A stretch of DNA of 64,000 nucleotides from Halanaerobium kushneri (GTDB taxonomy: Bacteria; Bacillota; Halanaerobiia; Halanaerobiales; Halanaerobiaceae). Positions 1-5,406 of this stretch are shown here, one piece after another. The notes below the pieces were generated by a model, which worked only from the letters and a program-made list of their open reading frames with translations, made no database searches and was not told where the DNA came from. The stretch's first letter is position 1, and every line of letters begins with the position of its first letter. The translations under genes and the position numbers were made by a program. The stretch is from the NCBI RefSeq assembly GCF_900156285.1, contig NZ_FTNC01000010.1:1-64000 (forward strand), written 5' to 3'.

Positions 1-278
1 TCTACCCATTTATCTACATAGACTTTACCACATCTGGAGCAGAACCTACTTTTACAGCTGAAGCTGACAATATGCTCTTCACCACAGTCCAGGCATTTAT
101 ATTTAGCATAACCATTTTCTGGTTTACCACATTCCATTGATTTTTCTACCTGGTCAATTACATGATTTAACATATCAGCAGGCACTCTACCTGGAAGATG
201 TTCTATCTTAAACTCTTCCCAGTGATCATTCAATATTGTTTTAACTTTAATATGATTTCTTCTTTGTTTTGGGCTCAT
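1..278 (-). CDS. IS91-type transposase, N-terminal part (continues beyond window)
   Basis: The minus-strand reading frame opens with ATG at 276-278 after an AGAAGGA ribosome binding site and stays open for 92 codons to the window edge. The visible protein has a zinc-ribbon pattern, CLDCG at about residues 65-69 and then FCSRCGK at about 82-88, which matches the N-terminal zinc-binding domain of IS91-family HUH (Y2) transposases. The catalytic HUH and tyrosine motifs would lie outside the window, so activity cannot be judged. The gene lies directly downstream of a riboswitch leader on the same strand, so the element has probably inserted there. The family call rests on the zinc-finger block only. 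Confidence 0.75.
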   Translation of the reverse strand, partial: MSPKQRRNHIKVKTILNDHWEEFKIEHLPGRVPADMLNHVIDQVEKSMECGKPENGYAKYKCLDCGEEHIVSFSCKSRFCSRCGKVYVDKWV

Positions 279-340: not shown

Positions 341-399
341 AAAAATAGCCCAGGTAGGAAGACTCTACATTCAATGAGTAGAACCTCCCCGCCTGGGCT
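341..399 (-). terminator. Riboswitch-controlled intrinsic terminator
   Basis: On the minus strand AGCCCAGG (392-399) pairs with CCTGGGCT (347-354), with further pairing of GGAGG with CTTCC and of TCTAC with GTAGA, followed by a T-tract (341-345). The upstream arm is also the 3' end of the ykkC-type aptamer, so terminator and aptamer folding exclude each other. That is the layout of an expression platform in which ligand binding allows read-through. Confidence 0.8.
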
Positions 400-524
400 T
401 TTATCCCTTCGGTGTGATATATCCATACCTGTACCGCTCGGACCAGCCAGTATATTTAGAATAAATCCTAAACAGAATAAATTAGACTATAAATTATCCC
501 TCTAATACTGCGGAAACCTAGGTA
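384..524 (-). promoter_or_regulatory. ykkC-class aptamer, probable PRPP riboswitch
   Basis: The minus strand carries the conserved blocks of the ykkC family in order: CTAGGTTTCCG (511-521), CTGGTCCGAG, ACACCG and GGGATAAAAGCCC, ending in GGGGAGG at 384-390. The family contains guanidine, ppGpp and PRPP subclasses. The PRPP subclass is inferred because the aptamer follows a guanine aptamer in tandem, an arrangement described for PRPP riboswitches that control purine synthesis. PRPP binding would be expected to prevent the overlapping terminator and turn expression on. The specificity nucleotides were not checked against a model. Confidence 0.8.
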
Positions 525-530
525 CACTTC

Positions 531-598
531 CCTCATAGTCGAACAATTTACGGTGTCCGGTAGAGACTTGTGGGCCATATTCCCACTATTATATGAGG
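531..598 (-). promoter_or_regulatory. Guanine (purine) riboswitch aptamer
   Basis: The minus strand shows P1 pairing CCTCATA (592-598) with TATGAGG (531-537) around the conserved purine-riboswitch core, with TATAAT after P1, ATATGG in the P2 region, TCTACC in J2/3 and CCGTAAA in P3. The specificity base equivalent to position 74 is C (plus-strand G at 538), which in this family selects guanine or hypoxanthine, not adenine. It lies six bases upstream of the ykkC-type aptamer and about 20 nt after the promoter start site. Guanine would be expected to repress. Confidence 0.92.
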
Positions 599-628
599 TA
601 CAAATTTAATTTTTGACTTTACAACTCA

Positions 629-657
629 ATCTTAACAGATGGAATTTTTAAAGTCAA
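629..657 (-). promoter_or_regulatory. Sigma-A promoter of the tandem riboswitch leader
   Basis: The minus strand has TTGACT (652-657), a 17-bp spacer and TAAGAT (629-634). Transcription would start near 622, just before the guanine aptamer, so the leader is an active transcription unit and not an orphan RNA fragment. Confidence 0.8.
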
Positions 658-697: not shown

Positions 698-1915
698 TTA
701 TTGTATTTCTACACTCTCATTAACAATATCTCCATCTTCGATCTTCCAGATACCGATTGCTCCCATACTGTCTCCTACGTCATTAAAGATAACCGGACCA
801 GATGCTCCTTCATAGCGTATTTTCTCTCCAGCTGCAATTAGATCTTTAGCCTTGTTCCATTCATTAATATTGACTACCATTCCATCTTCCGCCAAGACTT
901 CATTAATCGCATCTCTAATGGCTGGACCTTCTGTACTACCGGCTTTTTCAATAGCTAAAGCCAGAACAAAGGTAGCATCAAAACTGGTATCAATATAGGG
1001 TTTAGGTGGAATCTCACCAAACTCTTCTTCGTAAAGTTCAGTAAATAATTCCGGCCCGTTTCCACCAGGCATAGAAGTTGGTGCGGTACCATACATTCCT
1101 TCTAAATACTGTTCCACACCTTCAGTAATTTCGGGAGCTTTAAGTCCATCAGTAAAAATAAATTTATTAAAATAACCATTTTCTAGAGCCTGTCTGATAA
1201 TTGTAATTCCACCATCATCAGTATAAGCAATTAGTAATAATGCATCAGGATTTTCGGAAGCAGCCTCCATCAGTTCACTTCTATATGATACTTTATTTGG
1301 TTCAAAAGCAATAGAGGCAGTCACTTCTCCTCCTCTTTTTTCAAACTGTTCGATTACTGCATCATTTAAACCCTGACCATAATCATTATTAACATAGATT
1401 ATCGCCAGCTTATCATTGTTTAAATCTGCTGCCAGGTTTCCTGCAACTACTCCCTGTAAACTATCTGAAGGTACTGTTCTAAATACATAGCCGTTATCCT
1501 CTAAAGTAGTCAGTACCGGGGAAGTAGAAGATGGTGAAATCAAAACTGTCTCACCAGGAACTGCAACACTCTCAGCAACTGGTATTGTAACACCACTTGA
1601 TAAGGCTCCTACAATTGCATTAATTCCATTTACAGACACCAATTTCTGGGCTCCATCAACACCAGCCTGAGGGTTAGTTTGAGTGTCAACATTGACAAGT
1701 TCCAGTTCTTTTCCACCCAGCAGTCCCCCCTGCTCATTAATAATTTTTTGGGCCAGCAGAGTCCCGTTCCGGGTAAACTGACCATAGGAAGCAAGTCCAC
1801 CTGTAAGCGGCATTAAAGTACCAATTTTAACAGTCTCCTGAGCAAAAACACCACTAACAGTCAGTGACAGAAACAACATAACCAGCATTGTGATAAATAT
1901 TTTCTTTTTAAACAT
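698..1915 (-). CDS. livK: Branched-chain amino acid ABC transporter substrate-binding protein
   Basis: This 405-residue protein belongs to the type I periplasmic-binding (Leu/Ile/Val receptor) family. A signal peptide covers about residues 1-25 with cleavage expected after VFA. The mature protein begins with the family's VKIGTLMPLTGG block and has the typical two-lobed length. ATG 1915 has a TGAGGAGG ribosome binding site. It is the last gene of the liv operon, 70 bp after livM. It would deliver leucine, isoleucine, valine or a related amino acid to LivHM; the exact ligand cannot be read from sequence. Because livH is broken, this receptor may have no working permease in this cluster. Confidence 0.9.
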   Translation of the reverse strand: MFKKKIFITMLVMLFLSLTVSGVFAQETVKIGTLMPLTGGLASYGQFTRNGTLLAQKIINEQGGLLGGKELELVNVDTQTNPQAGVDGAQKLVSVNGINAIVGALSSGVTIPVAESVAVPGETVLISPSSTSPVLTTLEDNGYVFRTVPSDSLQGVVAGNLAADLNNDKLAIIYVNNDYGQGLNDAVIEQFEKRGGEVTASIAFEPNKVSYRSELMEAASENPDALLLIAYTDDGGITIIRQALENGYFNKFIFTDGLKAPEITEGVEQYLEGMYGTAPTSMPGGNGPELFTELYEEEFGEIPPKPYIDTSFDATFVLALAIEKAGSTEGPAIRDAINEVLAEDGMVVNINEWNKAKDLIAAGEKIRYEGASGPVIFNDVGDSMGAIGIWKIEDGDIVNESVEIQ

Positions 1916-1985
1916 TATTTTTCCTCCTCATTTTCTCGCTACTCATATTTAAAATACTCAATTAAGAGTAAAATTATTAACTAAT

Positions 1986-2939
1986 TTATTTGCTATTAGC
2001 AGTTGATTTACTGCTATATTTCTTTTCACCAAATAACCCCTGTGGCCGACTCAAAAGTATAACTTCTAAAAAGATACCAATCAAAATCACTCTAACAGCA
2101 GCGGCCTGAGTTGTATAAGCAGCCGGAAGCATTCCTGTTAAAAATTCAGTTCCGGTCCAGATTCCCCAGGTTAAAAAAGCTCCAATAATAGAACCAAAGT
2201 TATTGGCACTGCCACCAATGATCAGCATTATCCAGACTAAAAATGTAGCCTGCATCGGTCTAAAGGCCTCCGGTGAAATAAAGGAAGTAAAGTGAGCATA
2301 AAGTGCGCCTCCAACTCCCATCATAAAAGCACCTAAAATAAAAGCTTCCATTCGATAACGAACCACATTCTTCCCGGCAGCTTTAACTACTTCTTCGTCT
2401 TCTCTAATTGCTCGTAAAACTCTGCCCCAGGGAGAATTTATTCCTTTTTCACTTAAATAATAAAAAATAGCAATGACTATAATCACAATCAAAAGAAAAA
2501 ACAAATTGTAATTTGAACCAAAAACACCGGCCAGCGGTTTAGGAATAGCCGAGATACCTCTAACTCCATTACTCAACCAGGCCTCATTTTTAATTACCAG
2601 CCTAATTATCTCAGCAATACCAATGGTTGCAATCCCAAGATAATCTTCTCGCAAACGAATTGTTGGGATCCCCACCACCAGTGCCAGTATGGAAGCTACA
2701 ATACCAGCAGCCAGCAAGCCTATAACAAAAGGCATCCCAAAGCCTCCAAGATGATCAGGAGATGGAGCTTTAGTCATGATTGCCGAAGTATAGGCACCAA
2801 CTGCCCAAAATCCAGCAATTCCAATATTAAAAAGCCCGGCAAAACCACGCTGAATATTTAAGGCCAAGGTCATTATTGCATAAATACCGACAAAGATTAA
2901 AAAGAAAACAAGATATGAAAAAATACCAGCCAAAGTCAT
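1986..2939 (-). CDS. livM: Branched-chain amino acid ABC transporter permease LivM
   Basis: The protein has 317 residues and about eight to ten hydrophobic segments. It carries the LivM-type central block with IRLREDYLGIATIGI near residue 95 and the EAA-like loop GRVLRAIREDEE near residue 172, where the ATPases dock. The start ATG at 2939 follows GAAGGTG and lies four bases after the stop of the livH 3' fragment. It is the second membrane subunit of the transporter and would pair with LivH. The reading frame is intact and of normal length. Confidence 0.9.
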   Translation of the reverse strand: MTLAGIFSYLVFFLIFVGIYAIMTLALNIQRGFAGLFNIGIAGFWAVGAYTSAIMTKAPSPDHLGGFGMPFVIGLLAAGIVASILALVVGIPTIRLREDYLGIATIGIAEIIRLVIKNEAWLSNGVRGISAIPKPLAGVFGSNYNLFFLLIVIIVIAIFYYLSEKGINSPWGRVLRAIREDEEVVKAAGKNVVRYRMEAFILGAFMMGVGGALYAHFTSFISPEAFRPMQATFLVWIMLIIGGSANNFGSIIGAFLTWGIWTGTEFLTGMLPAAYTTQAAAVRVILIGIFLEVILLSRPQGLFGEKKYSSKSTANSK

Positions 2940-2943
2940 ATTT

Positions 2944-3878
2944 TTACACCTTCTTTCCCATTAAACCAGAAGGCCTGATTATTAACATTAAAATCATAAT
3001 TGTAAAAGCAACTGCAGGTTTATAAGCTGCAGAAATAATCAAAGTTGACATTTCCTGAGAAATTCCAATCACCAGGCCACCAAACATCGCTCCATATGGA
3101 CTTCCTATTCCACCCAAGATAACCGCTGCAAATAATGGGAGTAATAAATTCCAGCCCATTACCGGTGTCAAATGGGTATCAAAAGCGAGTAAAATCCCGG
3201 CTGCTGCTGTAAGAACTCCACTCATTGCCCAGGTCCAGATAATTACTCTCTCCGTATTAATTCCTGTTATCTGAGCTAAATCAATGTTATCAGCCATAGC
3301 CCTCATTGCCAATTTACTTGATAAAGTAGTTGAGGGTGATGAACATAAGCTAAATCAATGTTATCAGCCATAGCCCTCATTGCCTTGCCCAGTTTTGTTT
3401 TACTTAAAAATAAATGGACTGCAATGACAAGTGATAAGGCCAAAATTAAAATTATGATCTGATTTTGTTTTATTCTCAATAAGCCATCACCTATAATTAT
3501 TGGCATCTGAATTGCCTTCTCGTAAAATTTATTCTGAGGTCCCCAGACTAATAAAACAAAATTTCTAATTATTAGAGCTGCTCCCACAGAAGAAATCATT
3601 ACGATAACAGAATCTCTTTTCCTTAGATGTCTATATAAAATAAAATTTAAGAGTACTGCTGTTCCTGCAGTAAAAACTGCAGCTAAAACAAAAGCCAGCC
3701 AAAAAGGTAGGGCTAGCTGTACCTTAAATAAAAAAGCAAAATAAGCTCCAAGAGTCATTAAATCCCCATGGGCAAAATGTCCAAACTTTAAAATTCCATA
3801 AATCAAAGACAATCCAATTGCACCAAGGGCAATAATCGACCCCAGTATTACTCCATTCAAAAACAGCTGTGCGACCAT
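2944..3878 (-). pseudogene. livH: Branched-chain amino acid ABC permease LivH, split by a 74-bp insertion
   Basis: The 5' part (3303-3878, 191 codons, ATG after GGGAGGA) gives a normal LivH sequence up to the docking loop KAMRAMADNIDLA, then 14 unrelated residues and a TGA stop. The 3' part (2944-3312) repeats MRAMADNIDLA in another frame and continues as normal LivH to the end. Removing 74 bp would restore one frame of about 286 residues, the usual LivH length. The break falls at the cytoplasmic loop that contacts LivG and LivF, so neither half should work alone. The 3' part could only be translated from a TTG at 3312 with no clear ribosome binding site. A sequencing or assembly error remains possible. 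Confidence 0.8.
3274..3384. repeat. 37-bp direct repeat with 37-bp spacer inside livH
   Basis: Positions 3274-3310 and 3348-3384 are identical over 37 bp. Between them lie 37 bp (3311-3347) that are foreign to LivH and contain a small TACTT/AAGTA inverted repeat. The copy offset is 74 bp, which is not a multiple of three, and this causes the livH frameshift. Confidence 0.9.
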
Positions 3879-3882
3879 AGAC

Positions 3883-4581
3883 TTATCCTCCCAAAAAGAG
3901 CTGCGCTACTTCTTCATTCTCAAGTAAGCCTCGCCCACTATCCTCATATTTTTTTTCACCTGCTGCCAGAACATATCCTCTATCTGACATCGCCAGTGCT
4001 TTTTTCGCATTCTGTTCCACCATTAAAATCGAAACACCAGTTTTGTTTATCTCTTCTACCTTTTCCAAAATAAGATCAATATACATTGGTGCCAGACCTG
4101 CTGTCGGTTCATCCAGAAGCAAAAGTTTCGGTTCTATAACTAAAGCCCGACCAAAAGCCACCATCTGTCGCTGTCCCCCACTTAAAGTTCCTGCTTTTTT
4201 CTTCCTTTTCTCTACCAGTGGTGGAAAAAGATTATAAATCAAATCAAACCTTGCTTGAAGTTTTTTCTTTGAAACATAGGCACCCAGTTCCAGATTTTCT
4301 TCTACAGTCAGGGTAGGAAAAACATTATCAGTTTGCGGTACAAACGACAATCCTTTTTTAATCATTTGATCAGTAGTGATTTTTGTTAGGTCACTATTCA
4401 GATAATTTATTTGGCCACCCATAATATCAACAAGAGAAAAAATGGATTTTAACAGAGTGGACTTTCCAGAACCATTTGGACCAACAATTGAAACAATTTC
4501 TCCTTCATTTACTTCCAGAGAAATACCGTGGATGATTTCTATCTCACCATAACCGGCATAAATTTCATTAATACTTAACAA
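3883..4581 (-). CDS. livF: Branched-chain amino acid ABC transporter ATPase LivF
   Basis: This ABC ATPase has Walker A GPNGSGKS at residues 34-41, signature LSGGQ at 133-137 and Walker B LLLLDE at 153-158. Its short length (232 residues) and the ending EVAQLFLGG are typical of LivF. The start is placed at TTG 4581, eight bases after AAGGAG; a GTG at 4590 directly touches that ribosome binding site and is less likely. The binding site overlaps the livG stop, so the two ATPases are coupled. It would power transport together with LivG. Confidence 0.88.
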   Translation of the reverse strand: MLSINEIYAGYGEIEIIHGISLEVNEGEIVSIVGPNGSGKSTLLKSIFSLVDIMGGQINYLNSDLTKITTDQMIKKGLSFVPQTDNVFPTLTVEENLELGAYVSKKKLQARFDLIYNLFPPLVEKRKKKAGTLSGGQRQMVAFGRALVIEPKLLLLDEPTAGLAPMYIDLILEKVEEINKTGVSILMVEQNAKKALAMSDRGYVLAAGEKKYEDSGRGLLENEEVAQLFLGG

Positions 4582-4593
4582 TAAGACCACTCC

Positions 4594-5352
4594 TTAAGCC
4601 GTTTTCTCTCCCAAATAGGCTTCTAACACCTTCGGATTAGTTTTAATTTCAGCAGGTGTCCCCTCAACTAAATGCTTGCCATCATTCATTACAATTACTC
4701 GATCACAAATATTCATAATCAGATCCATATTGTGTTCAATTAAAAGAATGGTTTTTCCTCTTTCTTTTAATTTTATAATGTTTTCAGCAATTTTATTCAA
4801 TAAGGTAGGGTTAACGCCAGCTCCAGGTTCGTCAAGTAAAATCAGTTCCGGTTCTGCCATTAAAGCTCTGCCTAATTCAAGCAGTTTTTTCTGGCCACCC
4901 GATAGATTAACAGCCATCTCATCAGACAGATGCTCCAGTTCCAGAAATTCAAGAGTCTGATAAGCCTTAGCTTCATTTTCTTTTTCTTCACTATCTACTT
5001 TACTTCCTCTAAACCAGCTGTTCCAGATATTCTCACCACTCTGGCCTGAAGGAACAAGCATCAAATTCTCAAGAACAGTCATTTTCTTTAAAGTTTTGGG
5101 AATCTGAAAGGTTCTTGCTAGGCCAAGCCGAGCAATCTTGTGGGGAGCAAAGTTATTAACTTTCTGCTCTGAAAAATATACTTCTCCCTGATCCAGTTTT
5201 AAAGAACCAGCAATTAAATTAAACATCGTAGTTTTACCAGCTCCATTTGGTCCAATTAGTCCAGTTATAGTATTCTTTTCCACTTCAAAAGAACATTCGT
5301 CTACTGCCCTGAATCCACTGAACTCTTTTACTGCACTTTCTACTTTTAACAT
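4594..5352 (-). CDS. livG: Branched-chain amino acid ABC transporter ATPase LivG
   Basis: The 252-residue ABC ATPase has Walker A GPNGAGKT at residues 34-41, signature LSGGQ at 150-154 and Walker B LILLDE at 170-175. It has the LivG feature GAGVNP after Walker B and ends with EIKTNPKVLEAYLGE, the usual LivG tail. The start is ATG 5352 because AAAGGAG lies seven bases upstream; a TTG at 5376 lies upstream of that site. It is the first gene of the liv operon, behind a strong promoter at 5407-5435. A livF-type ATPase follows at once. Confidence 0.9.
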   Translation of the reverse strand: MLKVESAVKEFSGFRAVDECSFEVEKNTITGLIGPNGAGKTTMFNLIAGSLKLDQGEVYFSEQKVNNFAPHKIARLGLARTFQIPKTLKKMTVLENLMLVPSGQSGENIWNSWFRGSKVDSEEKENEAKAYQTLEFLELEHLSDEMAVNLSGGQKKLLELGRALMAEPELILLDEPGAGVNPTLLNKIAENIIKLKERGKTILLIEHNMDLIMNICDRVIVMNDGKHLVEGTPAEIKTNPKVLEAYLGEKTA

Positions 5353-5406
5353 AAAAGCACACTCCTTTCTACTCAATTCGCATTAGCTTTATGTTAATTT
5401 GTATTA

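Follow-up and report, generated by a model that had tools for sequence, protein, structure and literature searches.

An IS91-family element behind the terminator of a predicted guanine-PRPP riboswitch in Halanaerobium kushneri, and the preference of its relatives for intrinsic terminators

Leader anatomy and class of the second aptamer

The window (the whole stretch of 64,000 nucleotides from Halanaerobium kushneri that was analysed) is the start of contig C7. Near its left end it carries a regulatory leader and, behind it, the 5' part of an IS91-family element, all on the minus strand. The leader starts with a sigma-A-type promoter at 629-657 (TTGACT-17-TAAGAT), which matches the consensus at 9 of 12 positions and has an extended TG before the -10 motif. 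It is followed by a guanine (purine) aptamer at 516-616, detected with RF00167 at 82.6 bits (cutoff 37 bits). This aptamer forms a three-way junction with the conserved core; positions 598-592 pair with 537-531 in P1, and C538 takes the place of C74. All three stems (P1, P2 and P3) persist in 22 orthologues, where changes on both sides of P2 and P3 preserve the pairing. The second aptamer, predicted to belong to ykkC subtype 2b (PRPP), lies at 376-530, and its P1 loop is long (about 510-450). A spacer of 5 nt separates the two P1 stems; for tandem guanine-PRPP arrays, spacers of 5-7 nt were reported (PMC5912903). The leader closes with an intrinsic terminator at 341-398 (arms 398-378 and 368-348, T-run 345-341, MFE -31.3 kcal/mol), which is also kept in the 22 orthologues. 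Its 5' arm doubles as the 3' end of the second aptamer, with the letters AGCCCAGGCGGGGAGG belonging to both. Compared with chance, the RNA fold of the leader has a z-score of -3.2. Rfam matches in the window to FinP, IS009 and T-box were weak, well under the cutoff, and were rejected as identities. Genes of a branched-chain amino acid ABC transporter are located at 698-5376, upstream of the riboswitch and on the same strand.

For the second aptamer, the positions which discriminate the ykkC classes were compared. Position 49 is a pyrimidine in PRPP aptamers and an adenosine in guanidine-I aptamers, while G96 is conserved in PRPP aptamers and lost from ppGpp aptamers (PMC6031431). The equivalent of C49 is C436, inside CCGAGCGG, which is a pyrimidine as expected for PRPP by the criterion of PMC6031431. 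The equivalent of G96 is G393, which was located 22 nt after A415 (A74), taking the loop length of T. mathranii, and is invariant in 22 orthologues. G385, the equivalent of G104, agrees with a PRPP aptamer as well (criteria of PMC6031431). The core from ACACCGAAGGG to GGCGGGGAGG is letter-identical in 22 of 22 orthologues. In all 22, a pairing between GUACC (525-521) and GGUAC (435-431) can form; it hardly varies and is a candidate for the P0 helix, which pairs the aptamer ends in the crystal structure. As further evidence for the class, orthologues run into purD.

Guanidine-I (RF00442) was rejected for this aptamer, with 23.8 bits in the window against a cutoff of 63 and with diagnostic bases which also disagree. 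The score is low because the long P1 loop breaks the model; orthologues with a short loop reach 47-58 bits, still < 63. The first-pass annotation, made from the sequence alone, had proposed a tandem guanine-PRPP riboswitch and had counted an Rfam match to guanidine-I, or no match at all, against it. Nominally this applies, as the Rfam scan of the window reported no PRPP family for the second aptamer. It fails as a refutation, however, since there was no PRPP family that the aptamer could have matched, and since the diagnostic bases fit PRPP. Judged by these bases, the second aptamer is predicted to be of the PRPP type (ykkC-2b). The remaining description given there, i.e., a promoter, a C74-type guanine aptamer, a ykkC-class aptamer and a terminator sharing an arm with it, all on the minus strand, holds including the coordinates, and the tandem identity is borne out by the RF00167 score together with the PRPP-diagnostic bases.

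The element and the probably displaced purine operon

The IS91 family comprises rolling-circle (HUH) insertion sequences. The 5' part of such an element occupies 1-339 on the minus strand and runs off the contig start, with its outer end TTATATAGGAAATTATGC at about 339-320. The same end sequence is found at 6 other sites of the genome, and identity stops at the end. The element end at 339 is about 9 nt past the hairpin, which agrees with the earlier claim of an insertion directly after the terminator. An IS91-type transposase start at 278, likewise claimed before, was confirmed: the ATG at 278 opens a reading frame (3-278, minus strand) which encodes the N-terminal zinc-binding domain (PF14319, 63.9 bits) and is cut by the contig end, and full copies elsewhere in the genus score 303.7 bits with NF033538 (IS91 transposase) and 132 bits with PF04986. 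A ribosome-binding site (GAAGGA) precedes the ATG by about 10 nt, and 60 nt separate the element end from the ATG. The promoter scan gave no sigma-70-like site between the terminator and the transposase ATG. Both the zinc-binding and the Y2_Tnp domain are present, as read from a closely similar full-length copy of another Halanaerobium (L077), and the HUH motif reads NPHVHAL with H170 and H172 invariant. Complete copies in the genus measure about 1.65 kb and encode an IS91-family transposase of 437-438 AA. The copy on C7 is identical to the copy on contig C36 over 340 bases; therefore, the insertion at the riboswitch is likely recent.

Insertion next to GAAC/GTTC and the lack of a target duplication are traits of the IS91 family. 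At every IS 3' end seen, GTTC is present; it may belong to the target or to the element, and the same letters occur in the nearest empty site (in genome G003). Against this site, which is the nearest empty one and not the exact empty allele, no target duplication is visible. The 3' end also carries a terminator-like hairpin. Inside the 5' end by 24 nt, at 302-310 on the plus strand, a DnaA-box consensus TTATCCACA is found, the sole such site in the 64 kb window. Of 10 related elements (L135-L143 among them) that were identified through protein similarity and independently of the end pattern, 9 have a DnaA box or a one-base variant of it 23-25 nt inward from the end. Speculatively, this box may link transposition to replication.

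Tandem guanine-PRPP riboswitches are known as leaders of genes for de novo purine synthesis (Sherlock et al. 2018, PMC5912903). The same leader as in the window is present across the order Halanaerobiales. In relatives without the IS, the tandem riboswitch runs directly into purD, which is the first gene in 12 of the 12 relatives inspected. It is followed by purK and, where the stretch was read long enough (most relatives), by purE and purB; in the relative G025, no purK ORF is listed and purE is next after purD. Genes in the relatives were named by similarity to the copies in H. kushneri. Small palindromes of the GGTACCTGGTACC type were observed between the riboswitch terminator and purD in some relatives (L065, L066, L067, L069, L070).

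In H. kushneri, contig C8 carries purD-purK-purE-purB-purC-purF intact at its start (purF read in part). Positions 1-94 of C8 are the 3' end of the same IS, ending in ...GTAGGGTGGCCGTCAGGCCATTTTGTTC, after which the purD leader follows. Base 1 of contig C7 already falls within the transposase, so that the window does not include the far side of the IS. The gene order in all relatives therefore puts the IS between C7 and C8, i.e., most likely between the riboswitch and the purine operon, with the C7-C8 join taken from synteny. The assembly breaks inside the IS repeat and the transposase of this copy may be broken, because no contig spans it. With this join, the pur genes do lie directly beyond the IS 3' end, as had been anticipated. 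The silencing of these genes which had also been considered is not borne out, since the whole operon is intact and possibly reached by read-through or from a local promoter. In the spacer before purD, the promoter scan scored no better than for shuffled sequences.

The element and its relatives lie mostly behind intrinsic terminators

In H. kushneri, 7 element 5' ends were found. At each of them identity between copies stops at the T-run, and a different intrinsic terminator stands ahead, mostly that of an ordinary gene. The idea of a transposon driven by nucleotide status, put forward in the first-pass annotation, is thus to be regarded as mostly coincidence. For the junctions in the genus, a hairpin was scored when it ended 4-14 nt before the element, and window positions matched for T-richness were used as controls. 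A hairpin score ≥ 8 was reached at 17 of 18 distinct junctions vs. 10% of the T-matched positions (p = 2e-12); for random positions the value is 3.5%. The distance between hairpin base and element is narrow (5-13 nt).

A pattern search with the end motif plus TGTGGATAA in 398 genomes resulted in 57 matches in 19 genomes and in none for the reversed pattern; it was built on one end motif and, hence, is not an unbiased sample of IS91. In 51 further flanks, which include a few near-duplicates between related genomes, 73% had a hairpin score ≥ 9 compared to 9% of T-matched upstream positions (p = 8e-16). About a quarter of the pattern-found sites are without a clear hairpin. Relatives from other Bacillota (Fictibacillus, Bacillus, Moorella, Evansella and Peribacillus), which were identified through protein similarity, with transposases 48-55% identical and the end motif TTTAGGAAATTAT, were also behind a hairpin and T-run in 8 of 8 cases tested. 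In a Yersinia IS91 copy (about 30% identity, a single case), no hairpin with T-run was found. Non-autonomous copies of about 100-300 nt have both IS ends and show the same site choice (L250-L255; genomes G039, G169, G007 and G302). In G025, a complete genome of the order, tandem copies were observed, every one of them preceded by the 3' hairpin of another element (L082, L085).

Several targets are terminators of known leaders. The H. kushneri copy on contig C50 is directly behind a SAM riboswitch terminator (76.7 bits; L096, 150-249), whose formerly controlled gene was not identified. A copy in another Halanaerobium is directly behind a T-box terminator (98.8 bits). In G169, a single contig contains a T-box, its terminator, a non-autonomous copy of 102 nt and then ilvD (named from sequence). 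In G160, the element follows a cobalamin leader, and in G007 a short copy stands behind a terminator which is located about 100 nt past a cobalamin aptamer. The T-box copy of G004 and pheA, which is located behind a right end on another contig, plausibly form one pair. Altogether, known leader terminators make up about 6 of some 75 junctions examined, only one of them guanine-PRPP; therefore, riboswitches as such are not what the element seeks. It has no particular link to this riboswitch or to nucleotide metabolism.

Two observations concern further leaders. On contig C45 of G169 (L238, 46-424), a short copy is placed inside a T-box leader, upstream of the antiterminator and not behind a terminator. 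At the end of contig C33 (L095, 6122-6377), a hairpin follows a second guanine riboswitch and the sequence stops in the T-run of this hairpin, as if another IS copy followed; among the IS right-end contigs, no partner with an obvious purine gene was found for it.

Copies behind terminators could in principle result from survival instead of target choice, namely when insertion into T-rich DNA is random and copies persist only behind terminators, where harm is small. Most copies are indeed intergenic and behind gene 3' ends, and T-rich flanks are universal. However, such hairpins occur at only 6-10% of the T-matched control positions, and the narrow range of distances between hairpin and element also speaks against a filter of this kind. 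Furthermore, copies between a switch and its regulated genes (riboswitch, T-box and cobalamin leaders) are not harmless, and tandem copies are found behind the 3' hairpin of another copy. We therefore consider such a selection filter improbable. An even smaller probability is given to an element which evolved to put its transposase under purine/PRPP control. The transposase directly downstream of an intact two-input riboswitch, as well as the SAM, T-box and cobalamin leaders among the targets, would fit this assumption, but it is largely refuted by the small share of known leaders given above, with a single guanine-PRPP case and with ordinary terminators or unclear sites at the other junctions.

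Lastly, the terminator might be a protective 5' terminator brought along by the IS, as in the 'mobile attenuators' (PMC2965389). Some IS do carry their own 5' terminators, and two Cetobacterium relatives have one hairpin in common upstream of the transposase, which looks IS-borne, unlike in Halanaerobium. Here, in contrast, each copy has a different hairpin, which refutes this origin for Halanaerobium. In addition, inter-copy identity ends at the T-run, and relatives without the IS have the riboswitch terminator, too. Of all explanations, an IS-borne terminator is the one to which we assign hardly any probability.

Proposed mechanism and comparison with known systems

Our preferred reading, which we consider quite probable, is an ordinary pur-operon leader hit by a terminator-homing IS91 clade of the Bacillota, whose transposase is expressed mainly via read-through. 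The RNA would be an ordinary leader, a guanine-PRPP IMPLY gate in front of the Halanaerobium purD-K-E-B-C-F operon. The target recognized by the element would be the hairpin with its T-run. The 5' end of the element (TTTAGG/TATAGGAAATTAT, with the DnaA box 24 nt inward) would be joined to this T-run in the orientation of transcription, whereupon the host terminator would be left whole. The transposase presumably has no own promoter, or a weak one at best, and would be reached mainly by read-through of the host terminator. This read-through would be constant and low at most sites, and ligand-dependent at riboswitch and T-box terminators. For the guanine-PRPP switch, known riboswitch logic (PMC5912903) suggests a read-through into the transposase which depends on guanine and PRPP, such that transposase mRNA should increase with high PRPP or low guanine and be low when guanine is the only ligand. 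The purine operon behind the element of about 1.65 kb would be transcribed via read-through past the IS 3' hairpin or from a weak local promoter. Metabolite-gated transposase expression is plausible as a by-product of the insertion site. In members from Bacilli, TAAAAT is found about 17-18 nt after the end motif; these may have their own promoter, and the read-through model would be weakened thereby.

More tentatively, and rated as somewhat less probable than its opposite, the principle could be extended to a Bacillota-wide IS91 clade which, together with its short derivatives, targets the terminator hairpin and T-run, with leader copies being metabolite-gated and rewiring the operons which they separate. 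The terminator-homing clade is the general and more interesting finding and appears to be unreported before: a literature search run without most subscription journals gave no previous description of an IS91 clade that homes to intrinsic terminators. It would represent a DNA transposon which seemingly targets a class of regulatory hairpins and not a sequence, in parallel to group IIC introns. Such insertions explain how riboswitch-controlled operons get cut off from their switches, and they provide natural test cases for whether transposase expression follows metabolite levels. They also call for caution, as a terminator upstream of a transposase gene need not be the transposon's own.

Compared to the tandem guanine-PRPP riboswitch (PMC5912903), the leader has the same guanine aptamer, 5 nt spacer, predicted ykkC-2b aptamer and shared terminator, whereas here an IS91-family element most likely separates the terminator from purD. 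With the IS91 family, the element shares a transposase that combines a zinc-binding with a Y2_Tnp domain; the GTTC seen at 3' ends and the lack of a visible target duplication may be further common traits. It differs in its proposed homing to a terminator hairpin and T-run, in the DnaA box of its 5' end and in its short non-autonomous copies. Group IIC introns choose a position directly behind a stem-loop, which belongs either to a Rho-independent terminator or to an attC site (PMC7923331). Their site choice is alike, but they are retroelement ribozymes with an unrelated machinery and not DNA transposases. IS elements targeting REP sequences (IS621, IS1397, ISPsy8) choose palindromic intergenic DNA (PMC1525189); their target, however, is a specific repeat sequence and not a diversity of terminators, and their transposases belong to other families. 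Mobile attenuators are terminators upstream of bacterial transposase genes and were explained as IS-borne (PMC2965389), whereas in Halanaerobium the terminator is the host's and different at each copy.
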